From contig NC_049981.1 in assembly GCF_000003815.2 (NCBI RefSeq), forward strand, positions 20,950,505 to 21,014,504: a DNA stretch of 64,000 nucleotides. The letters run 5' to 3'. The DNA comes from Branchiostoma floridae. Its lineage: Eukaryota > Chordata > Leptocardii > Amphioxiformes > Branchiostomatidae. Shown here in pieces: positions 4,597 through 40,300 of this stretch. Position 1 is the stretch's first letter; every line of letters begins with the position of its first letter. A program made the translations under genes and the position numbers. The notes beneath the pieces are model-generated. The model searched no databases. It was not told where the DNA came from and saw nothing but the letters and a program-made list of their open reading frames with translations.

Positions 4597-7500
4597 GCAT
4601 CTGTACTGAAGAGGGTTTTGGTGACTCTGGCTGCAACAGTTTTCGGAACTTACTGTCCAACTGTGGCCACGTCCAAACAGCCGGGTTCCCCCATACTCCG
4701 TACAGGAACGACATCGTGTGTGAGTGGCACCTACATGTTCAGCCCAGACATCACATCGTGCTGATGTTCGAACACTTCGAGTTGGAGGAATCGGGTAAAT
4801 TTTAATTTACTCAATGTTGCACTAAGTGTGAGGTATCACTTGTTATATCTCTGCTGGCGTATTACTATTCATCGTCTTCTTCTATTCTTTGTTCTTGAAG
4901 CTACCCAATTCTTCTTGCTGCAGATTCTGTAGTCTATACACAAAAGCTCCTACTCTTTCCGATAGGTGTGATGGGCCCTTTAACGTGCTTGAGGCGTGGC
5001 TCTCCCCAACAAGATTTCTCCATTTAAAGTCCTCTCCGAGAAACGTCCCTAGCCTAAGCATGCTTCTCATTTGCAACTCAATGAAGTGAGTCATGCGTTT
5101 TTTGTAAGGGCGCAAAAGATCGATACCATGACAGAATTTTAACCCAGGACCTCTGTAACTCCGCCAGGCCGTGGCAGATAGAGGAATTGTCGGCATCTGG
5201 CTGTTTGAGCCTCCAGGACTAAAGGGGGGGGGGGGGGGGGGGTACAGACTAGCTGTAGGTTAGCATGTGAGGGGACGTTTATATGGTAATAGATTCTTTA
5301 GATAGTGACACCCTCTCTTTCCAGCACTTTCCCACGCACTACTGTTACATACTGGAACGCTGTACCCTTAAGCATAGTTCAAACTATGATTCGAAAGTAG
5401 TTTTATCTCTGCTTCCTGGAAATGGCCCAGGATCGGATAGACCAACGTGAATATTGGCCTGTGCCCAAAGCTGAGTAATGAGCCGAACTCTTCTTGTTCC
5501 GCATTGTCGCTCGTAAATCCTCACACACTTATTGAAAATCACTTTGTCGTCCAAATATGCAGCAAGCAAGGGAAATTGAGTTTTGTAACAACCACCCATC
5601 ATATTCCTGTGGTGTAATCGCACAACACGCACGTACATAACTAACAGGAGACACGCCCTTTTCTTCTTTATTGCACATACTTTTAGCCAGAGAGGAAGCC
5701 AATTTTGCCTTCGGCCACAGAAAGTTAAATTTTTTATCTATTTATTTGGACGAATCCATTACACAGACTCACGGGCAGCGTTGCTGAATGTAGTTTACCA
5801 ACAGGGCGAATACACAAGAATAGTAAATCCTAACGCCAGCCAGCCAGCCATAAAAGTTAATTTTATAGATTACTTCCGCGCAGTCATTTATATTCCCTGA
5901 TTTCAGATAAAAAAATTTAATTTACCCAATCTAATTTTTCGCCCTATCTCATTATTTTTGTTGTCTGCAGATGATGTCATCCACAAAATTTGCTTGCTGT
6001 GGTCGTATGTAATGTAAAGGATGTATAGCCCACGGGACGAATGAATGATCTGCCTGTGCTAATCTGTAACTCATCCAAGTCTATAATTACCTCATAGTGT
6101 TGCCATTAGCAGTAATTGGACGTCATGGCGTACCTGTGGCAATAGATCGTAGCGTGTGACTAGAACCGTCCCAGCTACGTGCTCGGGATTTCAATAGTTG
6201 ATTTATTACTATAAACATACATTGTTAATAGAAAATAATTCTACTGTACACATCCAGAAACCCACATATTACAGAATAAGTGGGTTGATATGTCTTTCGC
6301 TGCCTCAAAAGAAGAAGTCAATCCCAACCAAGCTAGCTCGATGTATATTTTAGAATGTAGCATGGTGTATTACATGTAAGTACTTCCTAATATCACTGAA
6401 TCTATCTTTGTTGCATTCATGTTATATCTAATTGTCCATGGACATGTATCCGCGACAAACTTATTCCATATTATTATCATTTCAATATTCCATTATTCTT
6501 GGCAGTCTAATTTCTTCACCAGATACAGACGACTCTTGTAAGTCCACAGTAACTGTCATTCTTCATTCCAGAAGTCTTTGTAGTTTGTACACAACCAGGT
6601 GTTTTATTCAACAACAGTGTAAACACCGCAGTAACTATCTATGTAACGTTATGTTATGTTACATTGCAAATATTTTACATCTGGGGCCCTATCTATGTAA
6701 GCAATTACACCTATAGCTCCAGTACAATGTGAAGCAGTCAGAATGAATTGTCCTGATGAATGTGACAGACCGTGTTGGCTCAATAGAACACTTGGCTGTA
6801 TATCAAGAAGTCTGCCATGCTCCTCCATTCTCCTTATTCCACAGGTATAAGTTGCGAGTATGACAAGCTGGTCGTCTATGATGGCGTAAATGAAAAGGCC
6901 GAGATGCTTGGAACCTTCTGCGGTACACATGCGTTCTTGAGGATCGTTTCGAGCCGCAATCATCTCTTCATGAGGTTCACATCAGACACGTCTTTAACAA
7001 TGGCAGGCTTCTACGCGTCATACACTTCAGAAGGTATTCGTACATGATGCATATATATCCCCAAATAGACTTAATAATAGGCCAGAGGAGTCAGGCGGGC
7101 GGTCACAGGATTACAGTTTACAGCAAGGCCCTTACGATCAAATAGAATAAATGCCTTCAATGCTTCGTAGACCATTGGCAGTTTTTTTTACAGAAAATGT
7201 TGGTGTCTATAGTTGGTCTGTATTTTTCCTTGATTTGCACTCCCCCAAACTGTCTGATTATAAATCTACATGATATCTTCTGCTGACAAATTTTGCTATC
7301 ATGTTTAGTGATAAGATATGCCGACCGTCAGACGTTTGGAGCCGTTGTTGACCGGGGTCCGGGGACATTCCCCTGCCCGGGCTCCACTAACATCACCGGG
7401 GAGGAGCTGTCAGCTGCTGCCTACACTGTTGGGTGTGAGCTGAGGGAGCGGATCGTGCTGGTGTGGGAGCCGTGGGGCAACATCAGTCAGAGCCTGATGC

Positions 7501-10500
7501 AGGTCAATATTTTAGAAAGAAAGTTAGTACCGCCATCTGAAAGATGAGGCTGTTGTAACGTATAACGTGCTCGGGGCATTTCATCGAACACGAACCCCAT
7601 TTTACGTCCTTTCCAAAAGACGAATGCAGCTCCAACCAGCCAGACCTTCCTCTGATTCTAACCGGGGTCTCCAAGTTACTAACTAATTGGAATCAGGAGC
7701 TCAAGAGTGAAATTGCTACGGATTGAGCTACAGAGACACCCGTATTAACGTTAGACCAGATGCTGTGACGAACATGTTTGCTGTTGACGTACACATTGCT
7801 GTTGATCTTCAATGTACAGCTAATGATTAAAGTTCTAGTGAGCATGCCCACCCTTATTACCACAAGTGAGGCATTCTAATGCACCATTTCAGTTGGATAT
7901 TGAATAAAAGCACAGTATCAAAAAACCCTTACCAATGATATCAAATACAAAAATTTAGTACAAAATCTTGCAGTTCATCACAGTATGAATGTGTTTTAAT
8001 TTTCAGATATACGAAAGTGACTTCGACACCTCAAATCCAGTTGTGATGGAAGACTTCAGCCGAGACATCAATCGAAAGTTCGTTTCCAAAGGCCATCGAC
8101 TACTTCTGTCACTCCATCTTAGGCAGAAACATGCTGGTTTGTTTATCCATTGCCGTATAGAAGGTATGGAAACGTTTCAATTGACATTCATAATAAGCTT
8201 TAGGCCTAATTATAAGAAGACGATGTTTTGTTTCCGAAAAACCTGCCAAACCTAGCCTTTTTAGTCGACCGCTGACACTGGCATGGGACATAAAATTTTG
8301 ATATGACATCTGAGTGATGAAAATGTGATTAGAATATGATGTTCAAAATACCAATGTCCTGGTGCATCTCAGTTTTAAACTGTTAAACCGTATTTGTTGG
8401 ATAATTTCGGCCTAAATCTAGACAAAAGAGAATCTCTTCTTATTGATCCTAATATTTTTCAGAGCCGTAATCGGATACACAACATCTATCTTAAGCCATA
8501 TAATTTGTCTTGTTATAGTAGTAAAATTTCTTACATAATAACGTTGTTTCGGGGCAATTGCCGGTCATGATATACTTTATAGTTGTTTTTTTTAACTGGC
8601 ATAACTGTTATAAAGCTTTCTACTATAATTATGATTATAATTTTGTTTCCAGACATTGCAGACAAAATTTCGACTTGTCCAACAGCCGTAAGGCAAACTC
8701 CTGACATCGGTATAATAGCGATGGACAATCAAATATCAGGTATGTGGATGGGGGTACACTTGGTATGAATAAGTGTTGCACTCAGACTTACCTTAATATG
8801 ATTTTAGTTTACAAGTGAATAAGTGAGTCTGCTCTTATATATAGTTATCAACTATGTAGATACAAAATGCAAATTTAGTCAATTGTCACATTGGGTTATG
8901 GTATGTTCAACTACCTCTCGTTTCTATGCAGTGACCGCATTTTGTGCCATAATATCCAACATTCCCACAGATACGGACCTGCATTGCAAAGTTGTTGTAA
9001 AGACATCGACCAGCCTGAGGCTTTTGACCAGTTTGGACCTCGTCAGCAATCCGAGTGCCTCAGCCCAGAGGGAGCCGCACGGCAGTCGCACCCGAGTGGA
9101 CCTCTACAACCCGGAAACAAGACTGTTGTCTTTAAGTTCACACATGACGTCACTTCCGTTCCCGACAGTCACCTCGCAAGATGAACTGTTGATTGTATTT
9201 TGGTCCAATGTTGTGAACAGTCAGTGGATACCTGAAGTGCAGTACAGTCCAACAGGTAGGGCCTCATTACTCAGATATGAGCTTCATTACTCAGATGAAG
9301 TGAATTGAATTCGACCGAGGTGTTTTTTTTTTCTAAATATGTTGTTACCATCATGGTGATGAAGAGCGGCCCATAGCGATAACTGTAGCAGCATCTCTTC
9401 TCCCTAAGTCAGAAACATCAAGCTTAAGCAAGCTTGACTTCACTGACTCAATAGGCGAAGCAGGGGTTACGAGGCAGCTCGGGAAATTCCCTACCCCATT
9501 TTGGCCGTGTGACAACCAATCTTCGCCCCTGTGTTGCNNNNNNNNNNNNNNNNNNNNNNNNNNNNNNNNNNNNNNNNNNNNNNNNNNNNNNNNNNNNNNN
9601 NNNNNNNNNNNNNNNNNNNNNNNNNNNNNNNNNNNNNNNNNNNNNNNNNNNNNNNNNNNNNNNNNNNNNNNNNNNNNNNNNNNNNNNNNNNNNNNNNNNN
9701 NNNNNNNNNNNNNNNNNNNNNNNNNNNNNNNNNNNNNNNNNNNNNNNNNNNNNNNNNNNNNNNNNNNNNNNNNNNNNNNNNNNNNNNNNNNNNNNNNNNN
9801 NNNNNNNNNNNNNNNNNNNNNNNNNNNNNNNNNNNNNNNNNNNNNNNNNNNNNNNNNNNNNNNNNNNNNNNNNNNNNNNNNNNNNNNNNNNNNNNNNNNN
9901 NNNNNNNNNNNNNNNNNNNNNNNNNNNNNNNNNNNNNNNNNNNNNNNNNNNNNNNNNNNNNNNNNNNNNNNNNNNNNNNNNNNNNNNNNNNNNNNNNNNN
10001 NNNNNNNNNNNNNNNNNNNNNNNNNNNNNNNNNNNNNNNNNNNNNNNNNNNNNNNNNNNNNNNNNNNNNNNNNNNNNNNNCCAATACAACGATGCATGGA
10101 GTACGGTTTGGTCTTCCAGCAGTACAGTAGAGATCGTATACAGCACCTTCTGCACATGGTCCAGAAGCGGATTTGTCCTGTTCTTTGAAACGTCAGGTAA
10201 TAAGAATTCTGCATCAGATCTCTGACTGCAAAAACATGAACTTGCCAAATTATTATCTTTTTTTACTGATCAACTCTAATCTGTGTTATGGTGTCAAGAA
10301 ATTAGCTATCCACCTCTTCTGTGTTGTGCAAATAGAACGCATGACTCCGTTTCTGTTAAGGGATGGTTGTAGATCTGATGTAGATGACTCCCGTCTCATC
10401 TTCGTACAAAAACTCTGGTTACTTTGTACAGATTAGCCGAGGAATTCAGACGACTCCATATGTATCCGTTGTGAAGATGCTAATTCTTCAGTAACCAACC

Positions 10501-13500
10501 ACTTATCGCTATGCTATCATCGGTTGAACTGCTAATTCTGGTTGATAGTCGGGGTCTTTTTACGGACTTTACATTATTTCTATCTTGATCTTTCAGAATG
10601 CCCCGGAATGACAGCTGACAGGTGTGAGAAACGGATTGATCTCCCTGCACCGTGTGGCTCATTTCTACCACCATCACATGGGCAGACATTGGCGTGCGAA
10701 TGGCAGATACCAGTGCTGCCAGGAAAGGAAACCGTTCTGTCTTTTCAAAACCTGAAAACAAATAAGAAAAGTGATGGTAGGGTTTACATAAAAGAGCTTC
10801 GAGGTGATGGGTCTTTCCAAACAGATAGTGAACTGCCAGACCGTTATTCCTTGTATTCGGTAAGATCAGCAAGCCCCAGAGTATTGGTGAAGTTCGTGAA
10901 ATACAGTGATGACAGAGACGATACGGCATCATTTACTGCGTTCTATTCGTTGAGGGAAAGTCTTCTTCCAGAAGAACACAGAACCTCTGAATCTGGTCAG
11001 TACATGCACTTTCTAATCCAATTTCAAGTTTCACCGGCGTTAATAACATGCCCACAGTCTTCATCTGTCACCCATTACATATTTTTTCGACCTTTATTTA
11101 TCCTTCATACATCTTCGGCCTAAGTCGTTTTTCAAGATTTCAATGGTATATCAGCAGTGGAGTGTATCATTCGCCAAGACGGTTATGTTTTCGGTAGCGT
11201 TTGTATGTGTCCATGTGAATGAAGAGAAGTTCAGTTATGCAAATGACAACTTAGTTTGTATAAAATGTCAGGAAAATATGGCTTTTGGTGCTGTGATGAG
11301 ACTGTCATATTTTAAACAGCTGTTATTTGGACGGAGAAAATAATCAACCATTTATACACATTAGGACGTAATTTACATAATCAAAGACAAGCGTGTAATA
11401 CATCAGTCATTTAGGTTAGAATCGTTTGGCAAAGGCTTGGAGTCGTGGAAATCTAGTTCATACATCAGAGTTATAGCACTTGTAGCCAAGCGATGGCACA
11501 TTTAAAACCAGCTAATATTTCATTCCGCACATAGGCAACTAATATCGCATATCTTTTGTTGCACATTCTGTAACATCTGTCATGCACACGTTTTATTGAG
11601 CTAGGACCCTAGCTTCTTACTTCTTGACATGCTGACGACAGTTTCATGATTTTAAATTCACCCAGAGGAGCTGTGTGAGAAAGGCTTTCGATACTGCCGG
11701 AGTAACTGCTTTCGCGTGATAACGGACAATGAGACGGTGGCCTGGGAAACAGCCCAACACAGGTATTATTTCATCCCGTGGTCTAATACCCAGCTGTCGG
11801 CTAACGACGTCGTTTGTGGGCTTTAATAGCTTTGTAGTATTCTCCTAGCTGTCACTCTGTCTGTAACTTCAGTCCGAAAAATTGCACANNNNNNNNNNNN
11901 NNNNNNNNNNNNNNNNNNNNNNNNNNNNNNNNNNNNNNNNNNNNNNNNNNNNNNNNNNNNNNNNNNNNNNNNNNNNNNNNNNNNNNNNNNNNNNNNNNNN
12001 NNNNNNNNNNNNNNNNNGTGGAACAGTTACTCAAGGAGGTGAAGGACGTTAAGTCTGATGGCACTATCACGCGCTTTTATCGGTCTCATGACTACAGGCC
12101 AAGATGCACGATATGCATGGGTGGACGGCAGTGAAGTACTGTAAGTGCCATTAACCATCAGGAAAATGTTACAGTCAGGCATCACAGGTCATTCCACGCT
12201 ATAATGGTTGTGACATGCACATGTGGTGACACTACCGAAGTAAACATTAGCAAGACTCCATGTCCTTTTCTACAAACCTATTATTATTGCACTATATTAT
12301 TAAGTATAATCCGTAACTTTAAACGGTCCCAAAACTATTGGAAAGAGTATCGTATTCAGTTACATGCAGCGACCGAAATAAGTGACCATACCATATGCCT
12401 ACTGCGTATTAGATACATTTCCTTTCTTTCTTATGATTGCTGGTAACATTTGATTATTTCTGATTATTGTTATTAGTTTCACATATTGGAGAGGGCGAGC
12501 TCCTCTGCCCGCGGGACAGAACATAGAGAGCTGTGCTCTGATGCTGACTGGAACATCAGAAGCTTCACCCGAGACGAGATGGTTCACCGTGCCCTGTGAC
12601 GATGCTGAGGCTACCCGGACCTACGTCTGCAAGGCCAAGGCCAGAGGTAGCTTGTCAGTATATCCTTAGTAGGTGATGAAAAGGCGTGCACGCGTGGTAA
12701 AAGTACCACATAGACATGGTCGTTGGTAAAATAGCCCATCCAGGTACACTAGCCTATTGGACTGTGAACTACAATAGGGATCTATTCCGAATATCATGAG
12801 AATCCGTCGTTTCTTTAATATCCTCTTTGAAAGGTTTTGACAAACACTTGTTGCGGCGTGTATGTCCGTTGACTACTGGACATACTATGAAATTCATAGT
12901 TTGCGTTGAAGCATATATTCATCGTGGGACGTTTCTAAAATGATTTCTTTCTATACCAAGGCTGCAACAGGGGTTGGAGCATGGCTGGGAAGTCTTGTCT
13001 ACGTGCCTTTACTCTTCCTGTCAGAAGTACAAACCCACCCCGGGACAGCTTCCGTCTGTGCCAGAGACAGGACTCAACTGTTGCAACTGTCAACTCGTCT
13101 GTTGAGGTTCTACGTGTACAAGATTATCTGGAACACATGTGGCCATTGTATCCGCGACCGCGTGTCTACATTAATATCAAACACCTGCGTGACACAAACA
13201 CCTGCGGTGTACTAGAGCGGAGGTATGACATAGATGGTGACAGGTGGATCGTTCCGAAAACTGAATGCCAGTTTAGAAGACCCAACATGGTGCTCTGTTC
13301 TATGGATGTAGATGGTGGGTATTTCATGTAATGTACTTTAAGCGTCTAGGAAAGCTAGCTTGCCATAGTGAAATTGACAGATTCTGCAACTTAACTTGAA
13401 GTATCATTCCTTGCGAAGTCAGATTATTGATACCTTTTTTTTAGATTGTATTTTGCGTCTTTAGAAGAATGCATAAAGACTTACATTAAGACACTCTTCC

Positions 13501-16500
13501 ACAGGGATAGGGCTGGGTATCGGTACAGCGTACCGGTACAAAACCGATTTTTCTTATTGGACCGGTCCAGAAAAACCGGACCTGAAAAAATTAGGTGGAC
13601 CGGATGTTGGACCGATTAGAAAATTAACATATTATTTTATCAGGCATTCATACGTTTTGGCGCTTGCAGTTGGAAGAAAATGACAAGAGTGAAGTAGAGT
13701 TTATAGTAATTTCTACCAATGTTTACAGTCAATCGTACAGGTGCAGTTAGCGTTGTAGTATTTTAAACGCCAGTGTTATGTCTAATACTCCACCAAACAG
13801 ATTTCTTTGTAATGAAATGGACCATTGGTATAAGTCATACTGAATCAGGTCCAGGTTCAGGTCCGGACCTGGACCTGATCCTCTGGACCTGAACCGGACC
13901 TGGACCTGAATTTTCTGTACCGGTACCCAGCCCTACACAGGGATATAGACATTGATATTTCAATGTACAAGATTCTATTACAAATGTAGCATACTGTATG
14001 TATTTCCAGCATCGACGTGCCCATCCTCATGTAAGTGCCTGGACGGAGTCGTCTACTGTCAGAGCAAAGGTCTGACCAGCATTCCACCAAAGATACCAAG
14101 AACAAGTCGCGAACTGTAAGTAGTAGAACAAGGAAATTATGGGTAATAGTGCCATGTTTTATATAGAATGTCTTTTATTTTCATAAATTCATCTATGAGT
14201 ACTGGTCTAATGGAAAAACAGATGAATTACTATGATCAATAATTAAGAAATCAATCTTGCTAGCACGAATTGTCGGGAGGAAAAATGAAGACTTTATCTA
14301 ACATGTATCAACAGAGGGTATTTATTGCCAAACGTAAGAGACAAAATATAGCTGCGATTACAAACTCGGGCTATAACAATATAACATGTACTTTCAGATA
14401 TTTTGCAGGCAACAGACTCAACTTGACGAAGACTTCCCTGAGAACATGGGGTCTGCTCACGACACTGTAAGTATTTAGTGTTGCCTAAGATCAATAAAGT
14501 TCAGCCGACGGAATATCTCCTATTTCACCAGCCATCTGCTAACCAAAAACCGGATCATTGCCTTCCGGCAATAGATTCCAATGTAGTCCTTCTTAATCGA
14601 TGCTTGTCGTAGTTGTTACATGTGGCCTAGCATATTTTGACAATGCAGCTTTGGCTGTGATACGACGGCACCCCACTATGTACTGTCCCCATCCATGCCT
14701 ATAGTGTCATTATCTCTCTTGACTGCTTTTACGGTCATACATTACCATGAACACAACAAGGATGCACAATCGAGACCTGGTCTCTCTACCTGTTTAATGC
14801 AATCATGAGCATGTACTCATAGCGAGGTTTATGAATCTTATGTGGAAGATCGGTACTAAGATCTTCTTCTACTTCCAGTGTTGTACTGCGCTGTTAAATA
14901 ATGAAAAGAAATTACACGTTGAACCTGTAATTGTGAGTGACTTACTTACAATGTATTTTTCAGGGACATCAGTAATAATTCCCTCACAGACATACCGACT
15001 GGTGCCTTCTCTAGCCTCTTTAGGTTAAGAAATCTGTGAGTACGTTCAAAGTGCACATCAATATATATATTTTGTGTGCCTATGTAGATGATAATGTTTC
15101 AACTTACCCGACTTATATACGTAACACTATGATTGATGCTGCTGCTTGCAACTTGCTTTGAAAAAGTTCAAAGTATAAAAGTGCTGTTGTTGTTATCTCC
15201 TACAGAAACCTCAGTTTAAACCTAATTACGAACCTGAGGGCTGGCACCTTTGATGGGCTGGAGAACCTGGAAGTGCTGTAAGTGTGCGGGTACCTATTAT
15301 TTTTGGCAAGAAGGTTATGTATTCGTCAACGTTTGTGAGTGTTTGTATCTCGCCTGGTGACTTTGAAAAAGGAAAAGTCAATGAATGATTGCTGCATTTA
15401 ACGACTTTTGACCTGCAGGTAATTTAAGTTATTCCCAGTATTTTGTACCTGCTGTGGAATAGCAATCTTCACGCTGTGTAAGGTAGTAGGCGAGAAGTAT
15501 ATTTACAATCTTCTACTGATTATTGAAAGGATATCAAACACTGACAGGCTGCTCTTTCTTTCCCTAGTGACTTGACAGGCAACAACGTGCATGACGTAGA
15601 CGTAGATATTTTCGTGAGTCTACTCAACCTCCGAGATCTGTAAGTATTTGAAAGAACTGACATCTATTTACACGGGGCTAACGTGTAACGTTACGCAGCT
15701 TTCGGGTGTTGAATGAACACTTAAGATAAGCGTGATGAATGTGTACAGAGTGAGAGATTGGAATAGCAGTAATCTGTAGTCAGGCGTTTACAAAAATCGA
15801 TACCATTGCGGCAGATGTGCACGAGAGGCGGGCACGTCTCGTTAACGGGTCCGATTACAGTAATTTTGTGGTTGGCGTAGTTTCACGGCCTTCTCCGTAA
15901 TTAGAGCCTGCCAAAGCGCCAGGGAAAGTCACCTGGACGGCGCGCGCATGACTGTCTCTTCTCTCTCTTTGCAGGAAAACTAATCAGTACAAATTGTGCT
16001 GTTTGTCGCCCCACACGAACGCGTGCTTTGCCGGGCACGACCATATATCCTCATGTGAGCACCTCATCAGGAGCAGGGGCCTAGAAGTTACTGCTTGGGT
16101 CTTGGTTGTAGTGTCAATTGTGGGAAACGCGCTCACCTTGATTCACTATGTTACACAAAAACCAACTGAGTCATCGGCGTTTTTCTGCTGCAACCTCGCA
16201 ATAGCCGACAATCTTTCAGGGATATACTTGATTATCATTTCATCAGCGAATTCCTATTTCAAGGATAGGTATTACCTTGAAGATGAAAGATGGCGAACTC
16301 ATATAGCATGTAGCATAGCCGGAGGACTGATTGTGTTTAGCAAGATGGCTTCCCTTACGATTGTAGTAGCTATCGTTTCCCACATGTACGTGGTATCTCG
16401 TCTGGTGACGACACGGTGGAAATGCACATGTAATGTACTCATGATGGCTTTGTGTTGGCTATTCGCACTCCTCTGTACCGTTCTGCCCATGCGATTTCAA

Positions 16501-19500
16501 CTTGATCAGATAAAAGACAAGGAAACTTCGGCTGCCTGTTCGCCATTTGTTGACATCATCAGAAAACATGGACGGTGGAGACACTGGTTTGTGCTTCTAG
16601 TTGCTATACCAACCATAATGGTAGTAGCTTCAATTGCCTTATTGGGATTATGCTGCTTTGTCGAGGCATTTTATAGAACTAATAAAACAAAGAATAACAT
16701 AAAGCGTCCGCCAGAGGAACAACGAACAATGAAGTTGATAATTGCTACAAATTCCATAAGCTGGCTGTCCGTTGCTTTCGTTGGGATATTCTGTACAGCA
16801 CAGGATGAACTCGTTGTCGCGTTACTGCCATGGGTGGTGCTTCTTGTTGTGCCTCTCTCGTCGGGACTAAATCCATTGATTCAACTGGTGGCGATCGCTG
16901 CAAGTTGGTTCACGAGGAGGAGAGGGGTGTCTGGCAGGAAAGATGAGGAAGGGAACTCGCACACGTCAGCGGACCAGGTCAGATGGAGTCTCCGTGGAAC
17001 TTCTGGTCCAGCTGGCGATGAGCTGGGTGGTACGTACTAGTATGAAACTACAAACCGATGGCTCTTAAGCTTGATGGATGAATGAATATTTTTTTATCGA
17101 CAACTGAACATTAATTAATATTGTACAATGTATAGTTGCAGTAGTATACAACGACGCAACCAGTCTATTGCTACGTATCCGACTACAAAGTACTATAGAT
17201 AATAAATAGTACATGTGTTAGGTTATCGCCACGTGTTGATTTGTTTGGAATGAAGTATACTAATAAAGAAATTTACCTATGTAGGTACAAATGGCCATAG
17301 GTCTCGGGCATGATAACAGTATACGGAAATATCAGTCTGTGTACCAGGGTGAAGTGTTCGCATCAGCGTTTCTCTATCTTTGTTGCAAGCCATCGCAAAG
17401 TGTAATTCATCTTGGATTGCAAATATATGAGAAATGGTTGTACTTTCGTTTATAACCTATAAATCTCAAAACATCGACATATGTATGTTTTATCCTCTTG
17501 TCTCATTCAGCCATCGCAAAGACAGAAAACACCGAGCAGATGCAGCTGTATTTGCAGTGCATTGAGAAAGATGTTGAGCCAATTCACGTAACAAAAGTAT
17601 TGCTGCATTTCAATAAAGAGGTGAGATGTTTTTAAATCAATGCAGCCCTTTGGGCAGCACTCTGCTTAAATGAACTACAACGATTATAACTAGATCAGCT
17701 ATATATTATTATATGCAACGTCGTAAGCATCAAGAATGTAAAAACTTATAACACATCAACATATTGTATATTTCTATATACTCAACTATTTGGGATAACT
17801 CTGTGATTGTTTACACGAGTTGATTATTTGATGTATCGGCTTTGCAAACGGATCACCTTTCCGCCACACCTTCCGATGTGTTGAAGAATTTTGATAGATA
17901 AGAAGACGAATCTATCCACTTTCTCAAAGACACGTGGGTGCCTTGACCTTAAAAGTAGAATTGTCATGTTGTTGTCGGTAATGGTGGGGAAGAACGCATA
18001 AGCTCGAATGCGAGTTAATAAAAGCGTGGAAATTTATGTGTACTAAGTAACTTCATGTCGTGCTAATCCTTGTTTCAGGTACCGCAAATATTGCTCTTGT
18101 TTTTCTCTATTTCTCTAGGGTAACCCTGTGGATGAGGCAACAGTTACAGCTGAGATGATGGTACTTAGGAAAATTGGTCTCGCCGGGAGTCTCCAGAATG
18201 TAATTAACCAATGTGCGATTGCAGACAAAGATGTATACAAGTGGTAAACATGTTAATCTTTATTATCTATCAATTTGATACATACGATAACACCTGTTGC
18301 GAAGGAATTCAGAATGATACATACATTACCTTTGCAACCACATTTGAAAGCTTACACTTAGTGTCATTGATAAGTCAACATGATTACCAATAGGAATGTC
18401 TAACTAAACTAACGTTTGAGACCGCATCTGGAAGCATCGACATCTAGCTGCGGTGTGTAATCGAGCCAGTAAGAATTACCCTGTGGAAGGTGACTGATGG
18501 TCAACGAAACGTCGGTCTTGATGGCACTTGGTGTAGAAGGAACTTTTGTTATCCACTGAATGGAGTGAAGTCTTTAAGCCTGCTCAACATAACATTGATT
18601 GAGACCTGAACAGCAGGTTTGTAATAGGGAATCTGTATTGAACCCGAACTCACTTTACTTACCCAGGGTTCTACACACTACTCGTCATCACTACACTTTG
18701 AGGGAGGTGCTGACCGAATTGACATCTGAAGATATTCTAACCATCAACCTGGATGTAATAAAGGCCTTGAACTTCCTGCACCGAAACGACATCATCCTCG
18801 GCAGAATGTCACTGGATAGTCTCTTAGTCGTAAAGGTGAGTTACAAACCTTTTAAAAAGCCGTTCAGGTGACACTGCATTCATGTGATATTCAAGAGGTT
18901 CTTTGTTTGTCCGTATTACACCCGGTAAATCACATAATGGAGAAACATGTACACCAGGTTTTACCAAATAGCATATCTGGGCAGATTTATTTATCGACTC
19001 ACACCGGGATATACTCTTTTTCGATAAATGCGGTGGGTTCTTAAACGTGCTTGAGGTGTGGGTCTCCATAAATACGGGACTACTATTTAACGTGCTATCC
19101 AAGGGATGTCCCTTGACGAAAGTAGACCTACCCGTTTTCATTTAAACCGAGCGAGGAAATGGATGTAAAATCAAGACTTGTCAGGGATTCGAACTCAGTT
19201 CCTCCAGGTTCAAGAACCCTACCCACAAGGCTCCCGTGCTGCCCACCCAGCTTAAGCGGATTTTGGATTGTACCGCGTTGTCCAGAAATGTGCGTAATAT
19301 GCCAAGCAAATAATACGCTTTATCCAAATGCATTTCCAACTGTTCCAGGAGCCGCAATTGACACTCATCATTGCTGACTTCTCCCATGCCAGGATCGTCG
19401 TTAAAGAAAGGAACCGAAGAAAAGACTTTGACGCCGACTTTAGGGAATGGAAGAAACTAAAAGGTGTTATCGAACTTTACTCAACCAGTCTAGCTCTCCC

Positions 19501-19528
19501 ATTCAAGATCACTTTCAAGAAAATTTAA
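4597..19528 (+). CDS. CUB / C-type lectin / LRR / 7TM receptor with C-terminal pseudokinase (5' partial)
   Basis: Large multi-exon receptor gene. Exons read directly: 4597-4794, 6845-7033, 7309-7502, 8007-8163, 8653-8739, 8971-9255, (gap) 10081-10196, 10597-10995, 11666-11762, (gap) about 12018-12140, 12477-12646, 12961-13314, 14010-14115, 14398-14466, 14964-15035, 15206-15277, 15568-15639, 15975-17029, 17511-17620, 18119-18243, 18667-18835, 19349-19528. All have AG/GT borders and every visible junction is in matching phase. The domain order is at least five CUB modules, two C-type lectin-like domains, an LRR N-cap, four LRRs, an LGR/relaxin-receptor hinge, seven helices and a kinase-like domain without catalytic residues. 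The predicted role is a plasma-membrane sensor for glycans or proteins, which is inference. The signal peptide exon is missing and two N gaps interrupt the ectodomain. The last exon may instead end at 19463 and splice further on. Alternatively the kinase-like exons could be a separate gene. Confidence 0.8.
4930..5200 (-). repeat. Dispersed repeat copy, related to 19015-19260
   Basis: The core TTTAACGTGCTTGAGGCGTGG recurs with few changes near 19040 in another intron of the same gene. Minus-strand open frames over both copies show similar short peptides (HASSTLKGPSHLS and HTSSTFKNPPHLS), which come from the repeat and not from a gene. The copy near 19,180-19,260 ends in a reverse-oriented tRNA B-box-like stretch. 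Confidence 0.55.
5225..5242. repeat. Poly-G run
   Basis: An uninterrupted run of G follows AAA within the first large intron of the receptor gene. It is low complexity and its length is unreliable in a draft assembly. Confidence 0.9.
9538..10080. other. Assembly gap (N) inside the CUB region
   Basis: 543 N. At least one exon, the N-terminal half of the fourth CUB domain, must lie here because the exon after the gap encodes only a CUB C-terminal half. Confidence 0.99.
11666..13314 (+). other. Receptor ectodomain part 2: two C-type lectin-like domains
   Basis: The first CTLD begins in exon 11666-11762 (ELCEKGFRYCRSNCFRV). It continues after the N gap in an exon ending at 12140 (IGLMTTGQDARYAWVDGSEV) and finishes in exon 12477-12646 (YWRGRAP, then WFTVPCDD and YVCKAKA). 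The second CTLD is one exon, 12961-13314, starting GCNRGWSMAGKSC and containing STVATVNS. No EPN/QPD-WND carbohydrate-binding set is obvious, so sugar binding cannot be assumed. The middle exon of CTLD1 reads through only if one T of the run 12075-12078 is ignored. Confidence 0.82.
11889..12017. other. Assembly gap (N) inside C-type lectin domain 1
   Basis: 129 N. The start of the middle CTLD1 exon and its acceptor probably lie here, since the sequence right after the gap already reads as CTLD (EQLLKEVKDV). Confidence 0.99.
13508..13935. mobile_element. hAT-like MITE with 8-bp target duplication
   Basis: A 428-bp element lies in the intron between CTLD2 and the LRR N-cap. Its ends are inverted copies of TAGGGCTGGGTA followed by CGGTAC-rich sequence. 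It is flanked on both sides by the direct repeat CACAGGGA (13500-13507 and 13936-13943). The 8-bp duplication and the CAGGGCTGGG-type terminus fit non-autonomous hAT elements. The interior holds many GGTCC/GGACC palindromes and no coding sequence. Confidence 0.88.
14010..17029 (+). other. LRR block and seven-transmembrane domain (LGR/RXFP-like)
   Basis: Exon 14010-14115 encodes a Cys-rich LRR N-cap (CPSSCKCLDG, then LTSIPPKIP). Exons 14398-14466, 14964-15035, 15206-15277 and 15568-15639 are 69 or 72 bp, all phase 2, and each encodes one LRR (for example LDISNNSLTDIPTGAFSSL). This one-exon-per-repeat layout is typical of LGR receptors. The large exon from 15975 starts with the LGR hinge (CC, then SSCEHL) and continues into helix 1 (SIVGNALTL) and helix 2 (NLAIADNLSGIYL). 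The DRY position at the end of helix 3 reads SHM, and the helix 7 NPxxY reads NPLIQ, so G-protein coupling may be altered. With the downstream donor unused, the frame ends at TAG 17038-17040. Confidence 0.88.
17201..17206 (+). promoter_or_regulatory. Possible poly(A) signal for a 7TM-only isoform
   Basis: AATAAA lies 161 bases after the TAG that closes the 7TM exon when the donor at 17030 is not used. It could end a short transcript lacking the kinase-like tail. No transcript evidence is available. Confidence 0.35.
18420..18600 (+). repeat. Dispersed repeat with CAACGAAACGTCGG motif
   Basis: An intron segment contains GTGACTGATGGTCAACGAAA followed by CGTCGG. A related stretch (GCATCGAAACGTAAGCAGG) occurs near 24,100 and, shortened, near 31,867. 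It looks like a widespread transposon-derived repeat. The family is not certain. Confidence 0.4.
19015..19260 (-). repeat. Dispersed repeat with tRNA-like B-box (SINE-like)
   Basis: Shares its core with 4930-5200. Near 19188, GGGATTCGAACTC is the reverse complement of a pol III B-box-like GAGTTCGAATCCC, suggesting a tRNA-derived SINE on the minus strand inside the last large intron of the receptor gene. Confidence 0.45.
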
Positions 19529-20280
19529 GATCTTCTAGTATTCAATGATGAGGCGTTTAACTTGCTGCCTTCATGCCGTCTTATACCCCCCCCCCCCAAA
19601 AAAACCCAAATCTTTGTTTATTTCATGAAAGTAATCAATTTTTTTAGAAACCAATGGTATCATAGTGTTTTAGCAACCTCGGAATATCAAGCCGTAAAAT
19701 TACACTCGTTTAATGATCATTTAGCCTTGTCATTCACGTAGCCTTGCTTCGTGTGTCATGATTGTCAGGTGTACGTATGGTAAATCAATGACAGATCACT
19801 GCACTGAGACAATATAAAGCCACCATTACATATTGAATGTGTAAGGACACCATATACCTCTGTTCAGTTCGCCAAAGAATGTAATTTATGTGTGGCTTCA
19901 GGACAAAACTGTACTACTAAATTAAGAAATCAATAAACGTAAGAGTAATGAATATGATGGATATCCACAATGTTAGCCTGCAGGGCTCACTCCAATAAAA
20001 GTACATATCATCTTGACAGCATCGACGGTACAGTTATCGACAATGTACTTCTCCTGAAGCCTGCAGTTAACCGAAATGTCGCAAGATGTCAGGCTTTACC
20101 AATTCGTTATTTCTGCCATAGAACTTAGCAGCATGGCTGGCCAGTGCGCTGCTTGTATCTAACACCCCCATTCCTCTCAGGCGGTGATTGAGATTTCACA
20201 CTGACCGAGCGATTGGAGTGCTAAACGAATTTCATGATGAAAACTAGAGTTCGACGAACACATCCCTTCGCCAAATAATC

Positions 20281-22564: not shown

Positions 22565-25500
22565 TTAGTTAGTGGCCATTTTGTTGCTGATCCAGCCGAG
22601 GAAGTTGTAGACCCTGGTGTAGAGGGTAGGGGTGTAGTTGGCGCCACACGGGTTCTCCCCCCAACTGACCACACCGGTCACTTCCCAACCGGACCGGTCA
22701 GCGGACGGACAAGCCAGAGGACCACCAGAATCTCCCTGTAAAACAGAATTGCATCTGTCTTAAGCGTGTGATTTGACAAAATAGATCAATAAAGGCAGAG
22801 AAGGTAATGTTACAACGTTTCTTTTGTTACCTCCATGAAAATGGAGGTGCTGTTCTCGGTGTGTCTGTGTCATTTTCATAAATTTGTTTTAAGCCTTGTA
22901 GCTATTACCAAAGCATCGTGCGATACCTCATTTCAGACATGTTTTTTCTACCAGATGATAAACTATATCCTAAATTGACGAATGGTTTATAACAAAACAA
23001 TAATATGAAATACTTCCAATAGCACGACGAACTAGAAAAGTCTACACAGTGGTCGAGCAAAGTTTCTTTGGGTGGCACTCTGTTTTAGCAATGACATGTG
23101 TAATAGATAGTGTGAATCACAGGTGTTCCTTTCTATGGCCCTTACTTATACATGATAAAATGTACTTAAGCAACGACTTACGACGCACGAGTCTCCCCCC
23201 TGAGACAGAGAGTCGTAGCCGGCACAGACCATGTTATACGAGTTGTAGCTGCTCTGCCACGCAGCGCTACAGTAACTGTCGGGCTTGATGGGTACTCGGG
23301 CTTGCTTCAGGGCTGTCGCCATTACCTCAGTACCTGTTTGAATATTGAATCTTTATGTAGGGAAGTATTTCTATTCATTTTTTTTCTATACCTTATCAAT
23401 GCTTATCTTTCAGGGATGAGAATAACATATAGACATACAGACATAGAGAACACAAGGTTGAAAGAAACATACATAATCATTACATAAGGTATACTTATTA
23501 ACCAACTTCAACGGCTAGAACTTTGGAATCAGAATCAGTAGGTCCTGAGTTCGATGCTCGCAATGCCCCTGCCCCCACCCCCATGACGGTGGAGTGACGC
23601 CCACCGAGCCTCACGGCTAATCTGTCTAAAGGTGCCAAAGAGACCTACGGGTTTGGTGCTGCCAGCGTGTCAACATCTGCACACTTGCCACTAAGACCCG
23701 TGAATATTTTATCAACCAACTATTAGCTTACTTGTAAAAACATGTTGCATTGTCTTTTTGAAATTAGAAGGACCCAGCGAAGAGATTAGATGTTTGGTTG
23801 CAGGGTGCCCAATAGATTGATGACACGATAGATAATTTGTGTTTTGGCTTTGTTAGTTTGAAAATGTTGGAATTTGGATTCTCAGATAGTTGAAGATGTA
23901 GAAATGGACAGGAACAATGATAATGGAGTTTTCTTTTACACAACCATTTAAGTCTCACTGCCTTCGTTTCGACACCTGTCGGACATTTCCCTCAGAGGTA
24001 ATAACCGAGGCGAGGATACAAACTTAGCTACGCTTGGGATTGTGTTCTTGCCGCAAAAGTGCCACCTAAACAGAAGCTCTGAGGAAGTTGTCTAATAGGC
24101 ATCGAAACGTAAGCAGGCGAGACTTGAGGCTTGTATGTGAAAGAAAACACCATTATATTATGATTCGAAGTCTACAAATATCAAAACAAATGACCTTGAG
24201 AATTGTATCCAATAGCGCCCCAGCCCGTCACGTAACAGTCGGTGTTGTCTGGCGTCATGCTGGTTGGCAGGCAGATGGAGCTGACCTTCTGGGACATGGT
24301 GACGGGACGGTCTAGCTTCAGCAGGGCGATGTCGTTATAAGGATGGGGTGTGTGGCGGTACTGCTCGTGCTTGATAACCCTGATGACGCTCCTCTCCTGT
24401 TCGGCACTACCGTCCACCTGGTGTAGGCCTAGCTTGATTTTCCAGTAGGAGGGATAGCCGTACCTAGATGGAAAGATAGGGTTAGGGCCTGTGCCCGCTA
24501 GGAGTGTATCCCCGACTGGACTTGGAAGCCACATATTTGTCCAGGTGAATTGCCGGACACGGGGGGTACCTCTCACTGTTTTCATGGGTAGCTCACGGCG
24601 CGGTGTCTATTTGTCGCTGGGTCCCGGGTTGATCTTAATTGCGTGTTAAAATAATCCAGGGGCCCGGTCGTGCTCCAAAATAGCCCGGTATTCGCAGGGT
24701 GTCCCACGGGTCCACGTAGCAGCCATGCCCCAAAACAGCCCGTATAACCTCACGAAAAAATCATTTGACTAATACACCCGCGCCTTTATGTTACATTAGC
24801 CTTGAAGCAGACACAGTAAAAGAGGTTAACACATTTGTTATGAGTACATCTAACCCAGGTCACACTTACTCGTGTATACAATGTGCCGCTGTGAGAACCC
24901 ACTGGTCAGAGATGAGTGACCCGCCGCAGAAGTGGATCCCGTTGGCCAGGCTGAGCCGCAGACTGACCTGCCACGGCCAGGAGTTGGCAGTAGCCTGGGC
25001 ACCTCCCAGGATCTTACCACTGGTGGAGGGACTGATGGCCTGCCGTCCGCACTCGCCCGAGGAGCCTGTTGTACCAGTACCAGTACCGGTACCTGTGCCT
25101 GTTCCGGTTCCTGTGTTACCTTATGGGCAATATAACATGCCTGATTTTACATACATATGCATACCTACCTTGTCCCTACAAGGTAGTCAAGAGGGTAATG
25201 TAGTCGTTTTTGACCACATGACATCCACACTCGTATAGACACACCATCACAAAGTTGTTGCTTGTTTTAAAATAAGGCATTTTGTTTTGCGCACGCTTGG
25301 ATCATTAAGTTCACGGTTCCGAGTACGCATGTGCAGTTACAGAAACCGAGGGTGATATCATGTCAGAATTATATAGCATTAGTATCAGGTGGTACTTCAT
25401 TTATTACGTAATAATTGTGAATATTAAGGGTGAATATAAATACTACCTATGTGATTTATATTTGTTGTTAAATATTTAGTTTATTCAAGACGTGATCATC

Positions 25501-29246: not shown

Positions 29247-29630
29247 CTACACAGACGACTCCGACATTATGATAGGGTCGTCTACTTCGTCTATTCTAGC
29301 AAATATGCTGGAGTCGGGTCGCTGGTCCACGAAGCCCCGTCTGTTTCTCCGGAATGACCTCGTTCGCGAGATGGACTGGCTTTTCTTCCTCGCGTCTAGA
29401 TCGTCGAAGCCACACCTCTCGGTGAAGGTGTTCCCAAACGTACCGTTCTTGTTGAAGAGGCGGTAGACTTGAAGCCACTTGTCCAGCTCTGGGTAGCTCT
29501 TACGCACCCGCGGCTGGGTGAGGAGGTGAGAAGCGCCACAGTGCGGTCGTGCTTGGTACTTCTCGTAGAGGAGCTCGTCGATGACCTTGTGAAATTGTGC
29601 AGCTCCGTACTCGCCAGGAAGAAATGGTAA
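29247..29630 (-). pseudogene. Orphan last exon of FAD-linked aldonolactone-oxidase-like gene (copy A)
   Basis: This 384-bp open segment is nearly identical to the final exon of the complete gene (37348-37731) and keeps the acceptor AG and the stop codon. None of the six upstream exons is present to its left (29,640-30,430), because the duplication broke inside the preceding intron. The conserved ARPHWGAS motif reads ARPHCGAS here (Trp to Cys). It is probably a dead fragment. It could only be expressed by splicing from some other promoter. Confidence 0.85.
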
Positions 29631-29704
29631 CTGGAATTGACATGCAATCTTAGAGGACACACAATATCTCAGTATCAAAACCAAACAGAGTATGAAGTTA
29701 CTTC

Positions 29705-30430
29705 TTGAAAACACACCTTTCACCTGGCTGTATGTATGAAAATTTTTTTACGCGATGGATGTTTGTAGGGCATTGCTGTTAAGAAGAAAGGAGACCATAA
29801 ATGTTTCTCATTGATTATACAAATGTGGTCCTCATTTACCAATCAGATATATCCTTAACAGTAAGCTTAATATTTCTCTCTTTTTGAGTTACATATGGCA
29901 TATTTTTGAGCATTCTAACATAAAATGCAGGGTATTTATGAACTGTCCTCATTAATTATGCAAATAAGACACGATTAGCATTTAATTATGTAAGGCATCT
30001 CTGAAGCTATCTACATTCCAAATATCATGAAGATTCGTCAACCCATTCCCGAGTTATTCACCTCAAAAGGGATAATGCAACTACACATGCCTGTAGAATA
30101 TGTATTAAATTGTACATTTGCTGTTGTTGGTGTGTTTTAGTATTTGCCTTTTATCCTATGGCCTGGCTGTATTTATAAAGGATGCGTGTGCGCTAGTGGT
30201 ACAAGCTGCCAAGGTCGGTTGATGGATTCCAGATGTAATCTTTGCCCTGGCAGGAGTATCAGCTACACTCGGCTACTTGGGAATTCCCTTCGGGGAACGG
30301 AAGAATGCAGATTGCAGACAAGCATGATGCAACTACGCATGCGGGGAAAAATTCCACAGATGCCTACGACATTTTGGGAATTCCTGTCAAACGGACGCAC
30401 ACTATACTGTTAGGCTCACCCATGAGGCGT
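29705..30430. other. Junction between the two duplication copies
   Basis: No gene is seen. The region carries a dispersed repeat related to 20,650-21,530 (AATTATGCAAAT and ATATCATGAAGATTCGTCAA). Confidence 0.6.
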
Positions 30431-37347: not shown

Positions 37348-40300
37348 CTACACAGACGACTCCGACATTATGATAGGGTCGTCTACTTCGTCTATTGTAG
37401 CAAATATGCTGGAGTCGGGTCGCTGGTCCACGAAGCCCCGTCTGTTTCTCCGGAATGACCTCGTTCGCGAGATGGACTGGCTTTTCTTCCTCGCGTCTAG
37501 ATCGTCAAACCCACACCTCTCGGTGAAGGTGTTCCCAAACGTACCGTTCTTGTTGAAGAGGCGGTAGACTTGAAGCCACTTGTCCAGCTCGGGGTAGCTC
37601 TTCCGCACCCGCGGTTGGGTGAGGAGGTGAGAAGCGCCCCAGTGCGGTCGTGCTTGGTACTTCTCGTAGAGGAGCTCGTCGATGACCTTGTGAAATTGTG
37701 CAGCTCCGTACTCGCCAGGAAGAAATGGTACCTGGAATTGACATGCAATCTTAGGGTACACATAATATTTCAGTATCAAAACCGAACCGAGTCTTTTCTA
37801 GAATAGAATCAAGAAGTCAAATATCTCATACTTCAAAGAACAAACATTTTTAGAGTTTTTGAGAATATCTTCTAGTTATTCATTAAAGCAATGAGCTTTT
37901 ATATCAGATACAAAAGCTCCTTGATTATAGTGAATTTCTCGCTATTCTGTCTATACATTTTCTTGCATATGTAATTCTACCCAGGCACACTTGCCATCCT
38001 TGTGAATTTATTCCCCCGGCTAACTCACCTCCTGTAGCCCTAACTGAAACGACGTTCAAGCCGGGTTAACATTGGACCTCAGTCCAGGAAAAAAACAGAA
38101 CACCCACAATGAAAAACAAACAAACCGACAGCTATACTTAACAGAGGTTAAAAGAACGCCTTTCTGTACCTCAATGCAGCCGTAGTGGGTGATGGATTCC
38201 TCTGCCACACGGCTCTGACAGGTCGGGCTGAGGTAAAAGTCGTCTGCTTCCAGGACCCGGCATGCAATGGGCAGCAGAGAGAAGTGCTGACACTTCGTTC
38301 CGTACGTCACCGCCATGCTGATGACGTCAGCCACCGCTGCTTCAAGTTCGTCCAGAGCCACAAACCATTCCATACTGACAACACTAGAAAGAAACACATC
38401 ATAACATAACAATAAAAGATACGATAATGATATAAAGCTTGAACTATGAACAACAAAGTTCTTTATTCATAACCAGGGAGTTAACATAACTGCCTCAAGG
38501 TACGGCAGCAAGGGACGCTTTTAACAAATGTGGTCCCGAACGCAAATGACCGCATTTATTTGTGAATCGGTTGAGAATAGAGCTTTATTATTCAGCTAAC
38601 CTGATGAAACTATTCAGGCATGATATGGAGGTATCTGTAGTACATCTATATGAAAGCTTTCTGTTATCAATTTCTTAATTCAAAAACATATAAATATACC
38701 TCACAAATGACATTCAAAACAAGGCATAGCTTTGGGTATGGGCAATTGCTAATAACAGCTGGGGATACTTTTGAAATTTATTGCATTACTGTAATCTGAC
38801 GTTTCATTGACAAGTTTCAATAAACCTTACTTGACATCAGGAGTGAGCTGCAGGACTTTGTGCCACTGATGAACGTAGCTGCTACGGTGTGACAGCATCC
38901 GGATGGTATTTTTGGTTACCATGGGGACCTGACGCGCACAACAGGACGTACCGCACAGCAAGGTGGTGGCCATGCAGTCATTCTGTGAAGAAACACGGTG
39001 TTAGACACTCGTAGTGCCTATTGGCACATAGGCCAGCAAGTTTCCTTGCTTTTGTAGCATGGTATATTTGTACGGGGAAGATTGATATACATGCCTTTAC
39101 GTCTTAGAATTTATGAAACTACATGTTACGTACTAATATTTATGCGACGAACTGACCTGTAAGATACGGCATCCAAGCAATCCCCTGCTCCCGGGGCAGC
39201 AGGGGCAGCAGTTGTGGCTAGCCGGCGGGTCTCCTGTCCTCTTTCCGCCGAAATAGATCCCGTGGATGACCGCGTACCCAGGCTCGACCTGGCCCCGTGT
39301 TGGGTCGGGAATAGGGTGCAACACGAACGTGCTGAACTCGTGATCGACAGTGTACATGTCGACGAACCCCGAGGGGAAGGCGAAGCAGCCCGACAGCCGC
39401 TCGCCGGGCCACGAGATCTCGATCGGGGTTCGGAACTCCTCGATGTTGAACGAAGGCTCGCAGCGGATGGTGATGGAATAGATGACCCCCAGTGACCCGA
39501 GCCCCACGGCCACAGCTCGGAACACTTCGGTACTGAGGATGACGATCGGCTCGCTTCGCACGTTCGCGTTTCGGACTCTGTCGCGGATGTCGTCGAATGG
39601 AACGTCGATCTCCTGATTGGAAACGTTGCACCGGCGAATCTTCACTTGGATTCCTCCTTCGATTATCATGTGCAATTCCACCACCGAGTCCGCCTGGGGA
39701 TACAGCAGCATGTTAATAACTTGGAAAAGGCTTAGGCTTTCGCAGACCTAAAAGAAGAAAAAAGTGACGTCGAAGAATAACTCCGTCAAATATGTAATGT
39801 AGAGTTTCTTCACTTTTTGTGTGTGAATTTCTTGCTAATTTCTGCCCTTCATAAAAGACATCTGATGTATGCTCTCCCTTACCAGGATCTTTTTGGCATA
39901 CCCGGACCCGTGCCCGCCGGTGCTGATGAGCCCGCCCAGGGTGTGCCCGGAGAAGTTGCCGTACGCAGGCACGGCCAGGCCGTAGACGTGCTGGAGTTCA
40001 CGGGCGAAGTCGTCCGCCAACATCCCCGCCTCCACCACCACGTGATGCACGTCTGTCTCTGGACTGTGGCGCACCAGGACCCGGTCTAGGGTCGTCATGT
40101 CTGGGTGGGATGAGATAACTTAAATCCCATTTTCACTGGACGGCAATCGCTGAGCGATCGTTAAACGACCAAATTTGGATTTGTATGACCCTTAATTTTA
40201 TCATTGGAATATGACGCACGAAGTAAAAGTATGACAGAAAACATGGTTATGGAAAAATATTCATTCTCTATGTATTAACGTGTTGAGCGACGTGTCTAAT

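Follow-up and report, generated by a model that had tools for sequence, protein, structure and literature searches.

Does amphioxus possess a receptor in which CUB and C-type lectin modules, leucine-rich repeats (LRRs), a seven-transmembrane (7TM) core and a kinase fold are joined in a single gene? The question is raised by a window of 64,000 nucleotides of Branchiostoma floridae (contig NC_049981.1, positions 20,950,505 to 21,014,504; "the window" is this whole stretch, and coordinates without a prefix refer to it), where the original prediction had read such an array between 4597 and 19528. Overall we favour, at slightly better than even chances, the reading that one gene in the window encodes a type-C LGR-like receptor with a CUB and C-type lectin-like head and a pseudokinase scaffold as its tail. 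What can be read directly in its support is the order of the exons and their potential to be spliced, the recurrence of the arrangement at four loci of the genome, the constraint between the window gene and one of its paralogues, and the loss of catalytic and coupling residues.

The probable receptor gene and its paralogous loci

By sequence reading combined with a splice-site script we recovered 22 exon segments on the plus strand (4597-19528), in splice-compatible phases. An AG acceptor accompanies every segment except the two starting inside gaps, a GT donor follows all but the last, which terminates in the stop of the chain (TAA, 19526-19528), and the in-frame reading is open in 21 of the 22, the exception being 12018-12140. 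Most of the CUB-type modules and C-type lectin-like domains (CTLDs) are bordered in phase 1, the LRR exons among themselves in phase 2, as is the acceptor of the 7TM exon; the border between the 7TM exon and the first tail exon (K1) is phase 1, followed by 0, 2 and 0 inside the tail. Two assembly gaps (approximately 9538-10080 and 11889-12017) split the exon chain, so the frame across them is unreadable in the window. The claim that the exons follow one another on one strand, with agreeing phases at the visible junctions, holds for order, strand and the phases of the 22 segments; as assembled, the frame breaks within the second CTLD1 exon.

Whole-genome searches covered the 513,431,437-base assembly, with 20-30 kb examined around six 7TM loci outside the window. 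The 7TM gave 10 matches and the tail 13 matching pieces, and at three further loci a 7TM match is followed by tail pieces in the same orientation: P2 (C3:20.838-20.841 Mb, minus strand), P3 (C14:11.270-11.275 Mb, minus strand) and P4 (C3:26.543-26.546 Mb, plus strand). A second genome search, with the P4 tail as query, returned the identical four loci and one marginal match (C1:9843496, E 0.041); a further marginal tail match lies at C1:15643000 (E 0.525). No tail matches were found at P5, P6 and P7 (C4, C1 and C18), the tail being present at three of the six non-window loci examined, and the two genome-wide tail searches gave nothing at the 7TM matches on C7 (five), at C3:17721339 or at C1:14895426. 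LGR-like 7TM frames without a kinase tail, at C4:28028121-28029116 and C18:2060470-2061366, carry long low-complexity C-terminal tails rich in GGKK or AKPG.

P2 lies about 100 kb from the window gene in a region (C3:20835001-20865000) with 0 N in 30,000 bases. It is collinear with 21 of the 22 window exons (38-86% identity, exon-wise tblastn), the remaining one (exon a of module 3, CUB3a) having been located by eye, and candidate splice sites of the expected phase stand at its exon borders, except for an unclear junction inside its module 4. The borders compared in the other paralogues likewise have such sites, apart from one CTLD1 junction of P3 (see below). P3 is collinear from CTLD1 to the last tail exon, K4 (tblastn), with a CUB at the expected upstream place (E 5e-17). 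P4 has CTLD pieces, the LRR cap, LRRs, the 7TM and tail exons K2, K3 and K4, and beside them (region C3:26525001-26555000) an SRCR piece (56.5 bits) and four LDLa candidates, three of which pass Pfam at 39.8-46.9 bits while the fourth, at 16.7, is under the cut-off. In its predicted domains P4 is a GRL101-like layout with a kinase tail. It has the most kinase-like tail of the four, retains the DRV and NPFLY motifs (see below) and is the copy likely to tell most about how the fusion arose.

Two trivial explanations for the module order were considered and rejected. An assembly join at the gaps, proposed beforehand as a way in which the prediction could fail, is ruled out by P2, which has the identical order without any N. 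A chance line-up of exons is ruled out by collinearity at the three other loci, and since these repeat the core layout it appears to be a real receptor family. What the comparisons support is a fused gene of a single type, retained at four loci, in which a predicted kinase fold follows an LGR/RXFP core.

The extracellular part opens with CUB1, split over exons a (4597-4794, phase 1 at both borders, 75% identity in P2) and b (6845-7033, matched in P2 by tblastn), which together give a Pfam CUB match of 87.8 bits. Three modules follow that had been read as CUBs. Module 2 consists of exons a (7309-7502, 44% identity in P2) and b (8007-8163, P2 tblastn match), module 3 of exons a (8653-8739, with its P2 counterpart by eye at P2 region position 14373-14468) and b (8971-9255, P2 tblastn match), and of module 4 the window retains the end (10081-10196), CUB-like by eye and 58% identical in P2 over 33 residues, its start being within the first gap. 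A fifth module, CUB5, occupies a single exon (10597-10995), narrowly passes Pfam (22.7 bits, cut-off 21.4) and has a CUB at the equivalent place in P2 and P3. Pfam detects modules 2, 3 and 4 in neither the window nor P2. By hhalign CUB1 is related to CUB5 (85.8%), whereas modules 2 and 3, the two compared, are related to neither of them. With the module 2 profile only four weak matches were obtained in the PDB (best E 0.62). Of the "at least five" CUBs, two are thus recognised, while the other three are, as far as profile comparison goes, modules conserved between the window and P2 without a recognised family.

CTLD1 is encoded by three exons: a (11666-11762, P2 tblastn match), b (12018-12140, its 5' part within the second gap, with a WVDGS motif and 86% identity in P2 over 22 residues) and c (12477-12646). 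In the window, where part of the domain is lost in the gap, exons b and c score 22.5 bits against Lectin_C (cut-off 22.6); the complete P2 domain scores 58.1 bits, and CTLD1 of P3 49.3. CTLD2 (12961-13314, a single exon matched in P2) has no Lectin_C match in the window or P2. Its profile nevertheless retrieves C-type lectins first from the PDB (CD69, CLEC5A and CD93), weakly (best E 0.011), and its alignment with CTLD1 reaches 78% probability across 50 columns. Of the two predicted CTLDs the first is clear in P2 and P3, and the second appears to be a divergent C-type lectin-like domain.

The LRR N-cap and array came out as predicted. The cap (14010-14115, LRRNT 34.5 bits) precedes four LRR exons, each 69-72 nt long and bordered in phase 2 (14398-14466, 14964-15035, 15206-15277 and 15568-15639, all matched in P2 by tblastn; LRR_8 59 bits over the array), and these are joined to the 7TM via a cysteine-rich hinge whose cysteines C8, C9, C17 and C27 are invariant across the four copies. 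The strict LDLa pattern occurs in four frames of P4 and in none of the open frames of the window, P2 or P3, although, with the first exon of the window gene missing, an LDLa module upstream may still exist. Between CTLD2 and the LRR cap (13508-13935) the window also contains a 21-nt inverted repeat, 95% complementary, whose arms, 386 nt apart, flank a GGACCTG-rich stretch and which looks like a small inverted-repeat element.

The seven-helix core and the kinase-like tail

The hinge and the 7TM share one exon (15975-17029, phase-1 donor GTACGT). Searched against the PDB, the four-copy 7TM profile places RXFP1 first (E 3.2e-47; 60 of 213 matches listed), followed by TSHR, LHCGR, FSHR, an unnamed family-1 G protein-coupled receptor (GPCR) and LGR4, ahead of other class A receptors; its 18 best matches comprise 17 named LGR-type receptors and the unnamed one. 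The window 7TM alone finds 19 PDB sequences at E <= 0.01, again with RXFP1 first (2.3e-18): 17 named LGR-type receptors, one unnamed family-1 GPCR and one urotensin-2 receptor. On these matches the window 7TM is of LGR/RXFP type, as the original prediction had it. Pfam 7tm_1 missed the window copy and scored P2 at 49.4, P3 at 48.3 and P4 at 67.4 bits. In a midpoint-rooted 7TM tree of seven loci of this genome, window, P2 and P3 stand apart from P4-P7 with a support of 100/100. An AlphaFold model of the window 7TM exon alone (mean pLDDT 47, pTM 0.30) was not used.

In three of the four copies the canonical D/ERY and NPxxY motifs are lost, in a register set by alignment and by eye. At the D/ERY place the window reads SHM, P2 VQI, P3 ENH and P4 DRV, and at the NPxxY place NPLIQ, NPMIQ, DPFIH and NPFLY, respectively, both motifs being kept in P4. 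Ordinary G-protein coupling is therefore probably weakened or lost in the window copy, P2 and P3. A change at the D/ERY arginine alone, however, is no proof of lost coupling, since RXFP1 itself reads EKY there in its PDB alignment with the window 7TM.

The tail is encoded by K1 (17511-17620), K2 (18119-18243, alphaC and beta4), K3 (18667-18835, alphaE and a degenerate catalytic loop) and K4 (19349-19528, with DFS for DFG, an alphaF-like end and the stop). All four have splice sites and are supported by the genome tail search, the four-tail alignment and their matches in P2, with K3 covered also by the PDB profile. The tail profile obtained 659 PDB sequences at E <= 1, the best 60 of which are all protein kinases (best E 3.9e-5), and every copy but that of the window exceeds one or other Pfam cut-off, P4 with 45.2 bits (Pkinase, cut-off 31.7) and P2 and P3 with 27.5 and 25.5 bits (PK_Tyr_Ser-Thr, cut-off 23.1). 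These matches stop at profile positions 150-161 of 258-263, and none of the four tails continues far beyond an alphaF-like D..W, which leaves the C-lobe truncated.

The residues of the tail are described here by the customary kinase motif names (HRD, DFG, alphaC, beta4, alphaF and so on). In the register of the PDB profile alignment the HRD aspartate is lost in all four copies, its position being occupied by R, K, K and G in the window, P2, P3 and P4. At the place of the catalytic-loop lysine stand S, S, T and S, and the catalytic-loop asparagine is kept in P4 only. The DFG aspartate is kept in all four, as DFS or DFT, as are the glutamate of the alphaC-like helix and alphaE; the beta4 motif GH.N.V is present in P2, P3 and P4 and not in the window copy, and no glycine loop was seen by eye in K1. 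The predicted kinase-like tail is thus upheld as a fold, but hardly as a working kinase: judged by its residues, it is very probably a truncated pseudokinase without activity.

Proposed working of the receptor and rival explanations

Outside the cell the receptor would display CUB1, the three modules of no assigned family, CUB5, two C-type lectin-like domains and a short LRR stack set on the cysteine hinge; an RXFP/LGR-type 7TM would span the membrane, and a truncated pseudokinase, running from just past the 7TM exon to near alphaF, would lie inside. We propose that the CUB/CTLD part gathers a protein or glycan ligand and presents it to the LRR-hinge-7TM core, much as in relaxin receptors, and that the movement of the 7TM may be handed to the pseudokinase, which would act as a docking or allosteric scaffold and not as an enzyme. 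In the window copy, P2 and P3 the tail may be the main output, while P4 may still couple to G proteins. For a scaffold output instead of, or beside, G proteins we see about an even chance. The broader idea that in a chordate LGR family the 7TM no longer activates G proteins and has become a conformational coupler for a covalently attached pseudokinase, G-protein-independent and under a lectin/CUB head, is more tentative and in our view somewhat doubtful.

Beyond what is read directly, the favoured reading supposes a single transcript, an intact window copy (the difference in CTLD1 being an assembly error), a class of ligand and a mode of signalling, and a number of observations weigh against it. 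The first exon and signal peptide of the window gene were looked for upstream and not found, and a comparison of upstream open frames and DNA between the window gene and P2 gave nothing convincing beyond CUB1 exon a. The window tail is under both Pfam cut-offs (19.7 and 17.1 bits), the P2 and P3 tails miss that of Pkinase, and the assignment of the beta3 lysine is uncertain in the kinase alignment. K1 was not found in P4, nor were CUBs in the P4 region as covered, which stops short of the sequence further upstream, and in P3 exons a and b of CTLD1 are not separated by an intron. If unspliced, the window 7TM frame runs into a stop three codons past the donor (TAG 17038-17040), and this stop, together with two AATAAA motifs in the 7TM-K1 intron (at 17201 and 17262, spanning 17201-17267), makes a tail-less transcript or isoform possible; two further AATAAA motifs after the stop of the chain (19932-19999) may be the poly(A) signal of the full transcript. 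Compared with P2, segment 12018-12140 contains one extra base about 55 bases from the edge of the second gap. The homology to P2 accordingly changes frame from the first part of the segment to the second, whose frame has a stop at 12040. Lastly, the estimates of constraint are rough. Window and P2 differ at 426, 286 and 715 first, second and third codon positions over 1291 codons, mostly at the third, and the ratio of nonsynonymous to synonymous rates (dN/dS) is 0.14 for the CUB-type modules, 0.18 for CTLDs, 0.11 for LRRs, 0.15 for the 7TM and 0.14 for the tail (18 of the 22 segments, leaving out CUB3a, CUB4b, CTLD1a and CTLD1b), but dS, at 1.3-2.7, is near saturation.

Some of these points can be read in favour of other explanations. 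Two adjacent genes might be involved, an LRR-7TM receptor ending at TAG 17038-17040, only 9 nt past the donor and ahead of the AATAAA motifs, and a small kinase-like gene starting from or near K1, the two having been duplicated together at four loci; in P2 an in-frame ATG does stand 46 bp before the K1 acceptor. Yet there the 7TM donor and K1 acceptor are just 240 bp apart (234 with an alternative candidate donor), which leaves little space for a separate promoter and start exon, K1 opens with a partial codon that matches the phase-1 donor in the window, P2 and P3, and the sequence beyond the donor looks unlike, by eye, in all four copies. Order and strand are moreover kept at four loci belonging to three lineages (window/P2, P3 and P4) whose mutual 7TM identity is only 23-36%. 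We consider two genes very improbable and a single transcript for the family highly likely; separate genes, the other outcome against which the prediction had been set, are disfavoured because P2 repeats the whole order and two more loci repeat that from CTLD to kinase. Another explanation accepts the fused family and sees the window copy as a pseudogene, or on its way to becoming one, the fast copy of a pair in which P2 is the working member. The frame difference in CTLD1 and its stop agree with this, as does the failure of Pfam to detect the window 7TM, and with P3 as outgroup the window exceeds P2 in unique changes both in the 7TM (46 vs 15, chi2 15.75) and in the tail (26 vs 8, chi2 9.53), so that faster change and a frame difference together fit the picture of a relaxing duplicate. 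With P4 as outgroup, however, the difference in rate is not clear (chi2 2.81 for the 7TM and 0.25 for the tail), the remaining 21 segments read through without a stop and have their splice sites intact, and dN/dS is around 0.15 over the window-P2 pair, though both copies are mixed in that value. The frame difference itself adjoins an assembly gap, and for this reason an assembly error and a true frameshift, which would mean a broken copy, cannot be told apart. A decaying window copy seems to us unlikely, though worth keeping in mind, and an intact one quite probable.

The third alternative concerns signalling. The fused receptor could work mainly via G proteins, as RXFP1/2 do, with desensitisation or trafficking as the sole task of its kinase-like tail. 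The clearly LGR-type 7TM, the DRV and NPFLY motifs of P4 and the EKY of RXFP1 all speak for it, whereas the window copy, P2 and P3 are without a recognisable D/ERY or the NPxxY tyrosine, and the tail appears to be constrained as much as the rest of the protein. We regard this as rather improbable.

Surroundings, known relatives and significance

Other features of the window lie outside the receptor chain. Upstream of it, a 115-bp unit is repeated in tandem about seven times over positions 1-788. Downstream, on the minus strand and by eye, there are open frames like pieces of a trypsin-type serine protease (22565-24606), two closely similar frames about 8 kb apart that resemble the C-terminal part of an aldonolactone (gulonolactone) oxidase (29250-29747 and 37351-37797) and may represent a tandem duplication, a frame ending in a Nodal-like cysteine knot of TGF-beta type (45433-46380), and two long frames of non-LTR retrotransposon type, one endonuclease-like and the other reverse-transcriptase-like (55589-58811).

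The published systems compared here are described from parts of the papers cited. The LGR family has been divided into types A, B, C1 and C2 (PMC11863921), and the window gene comes close to type C (RXFP1/2, with GRL101 as type C2), sharing the LRR N-cap, phase-2 LRR exons of 69-72 nt, the cysteine hinge and the 7TM, and through its paralogue P4 also LDLa modules. Unlike type C, it has CUBs, unplaced modules, CTLDs and four LRRs only, with no LDLa pattern found, has lost D/ERY and NPxxY, and ends in a kinase-fold tail of a kind that the sources seen describe for no LGR. GRL101 itself has been proposed as an insulin-like growth factor (IGF) receptor (PMC8286064). The GRL101-like receptors of the schistosome-resistance locus SudRes2 of the snail Biomphalaria sudanica (PMC12297450) likewise have an LGR-type 7TM preceded by LRRs and a C-type lectin-like domain, with LDLa in the snail genes as in P4, but the words "kinase" and "CUB" are both absent from the main text of that paper (0 and 0). 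CUB domains N-terminal to an LRR-7TM part are also described for type-C-like cnidarian and placozoan LGRs, Nvec-LGR4 of Nematostella and Tadh-LGR-5 of Trichoplax (PMC9545775), in which, by contrast, LDL and fibronectin type II domains are present as well; that main text contains neither "kinase" nor "C-type lectin" (0 and 0). The amphioxus Adhesion GPCRs (PMC2246102) bear CUB and C-type lectin modules too, though on receptors of the Adhesion family and not LRR/LGR, and "kinase" is absent from the main text.

A 7TM with a C-terminal kinase fold is known from the GPCR-TKL/K and GPCR-TK proteins of oomycetes, amoebozoans, choanoflagellates and sponges (PMC12716839), which by their description are set apart from the amphioxus family in having 7TMs of other families, while the amphioxus proteins have an LGR-type 7TM and a truncated kinase without the HRD aspartate. 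This 2025 survey reports GPCR-TKs in sponges and in no other metazoans, with B. floridae among the proteomes, and according to its authors no 7TM-kinase fusion has, to their knowledge, been functionally characterised. It could have missed a diverged pseudokinase, since its queries, in the part of the paper seen, were choanoflagellate 7TMs and tyrosine kinase domains. In the literature searched, mostly titles and openings of abstracts, we found no LGR with a kinase or pseudokinase tail, which does not amount to absence from print. The original prediction held that no LGR was known with CUB plus lectin modules or with a kinase fold behind the 7TM; as CUB-bearing and lectin-bearing LGRs have each been published (PMC9545775, PMC12297450), only their combination and the kinase-fold tail appear to be new.

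An immune or gamete role, as suggested beforehand, might be considered by analogy, the snail resistance locus being its nearest support. The fusion may, as was also suggested, belong to the chordate lineage, the analysis having covered this one genome. Were the coupler idea set out above to hold, the family would count, within the literature examined, as the earliest known case of a GPCR-kinase-fold fusion from any bilaterian and from any LGR. Because the lectin-LRR-7TM part resembles the receptors of the snail resistance locus, as these are described in the sections seen of PMC12297450, it becomes possible to test whether GRL101-like receptors have had an ancient role in recognition. A chordate family at four loci, combining a core from the hormone-receptor clade with a catalytically depleted kinase fold, would widen the picture of 7TM-kinase proteins in animals, and it raises the question of whether a pseudokinase scaffold can read out the movement of a GPCR.

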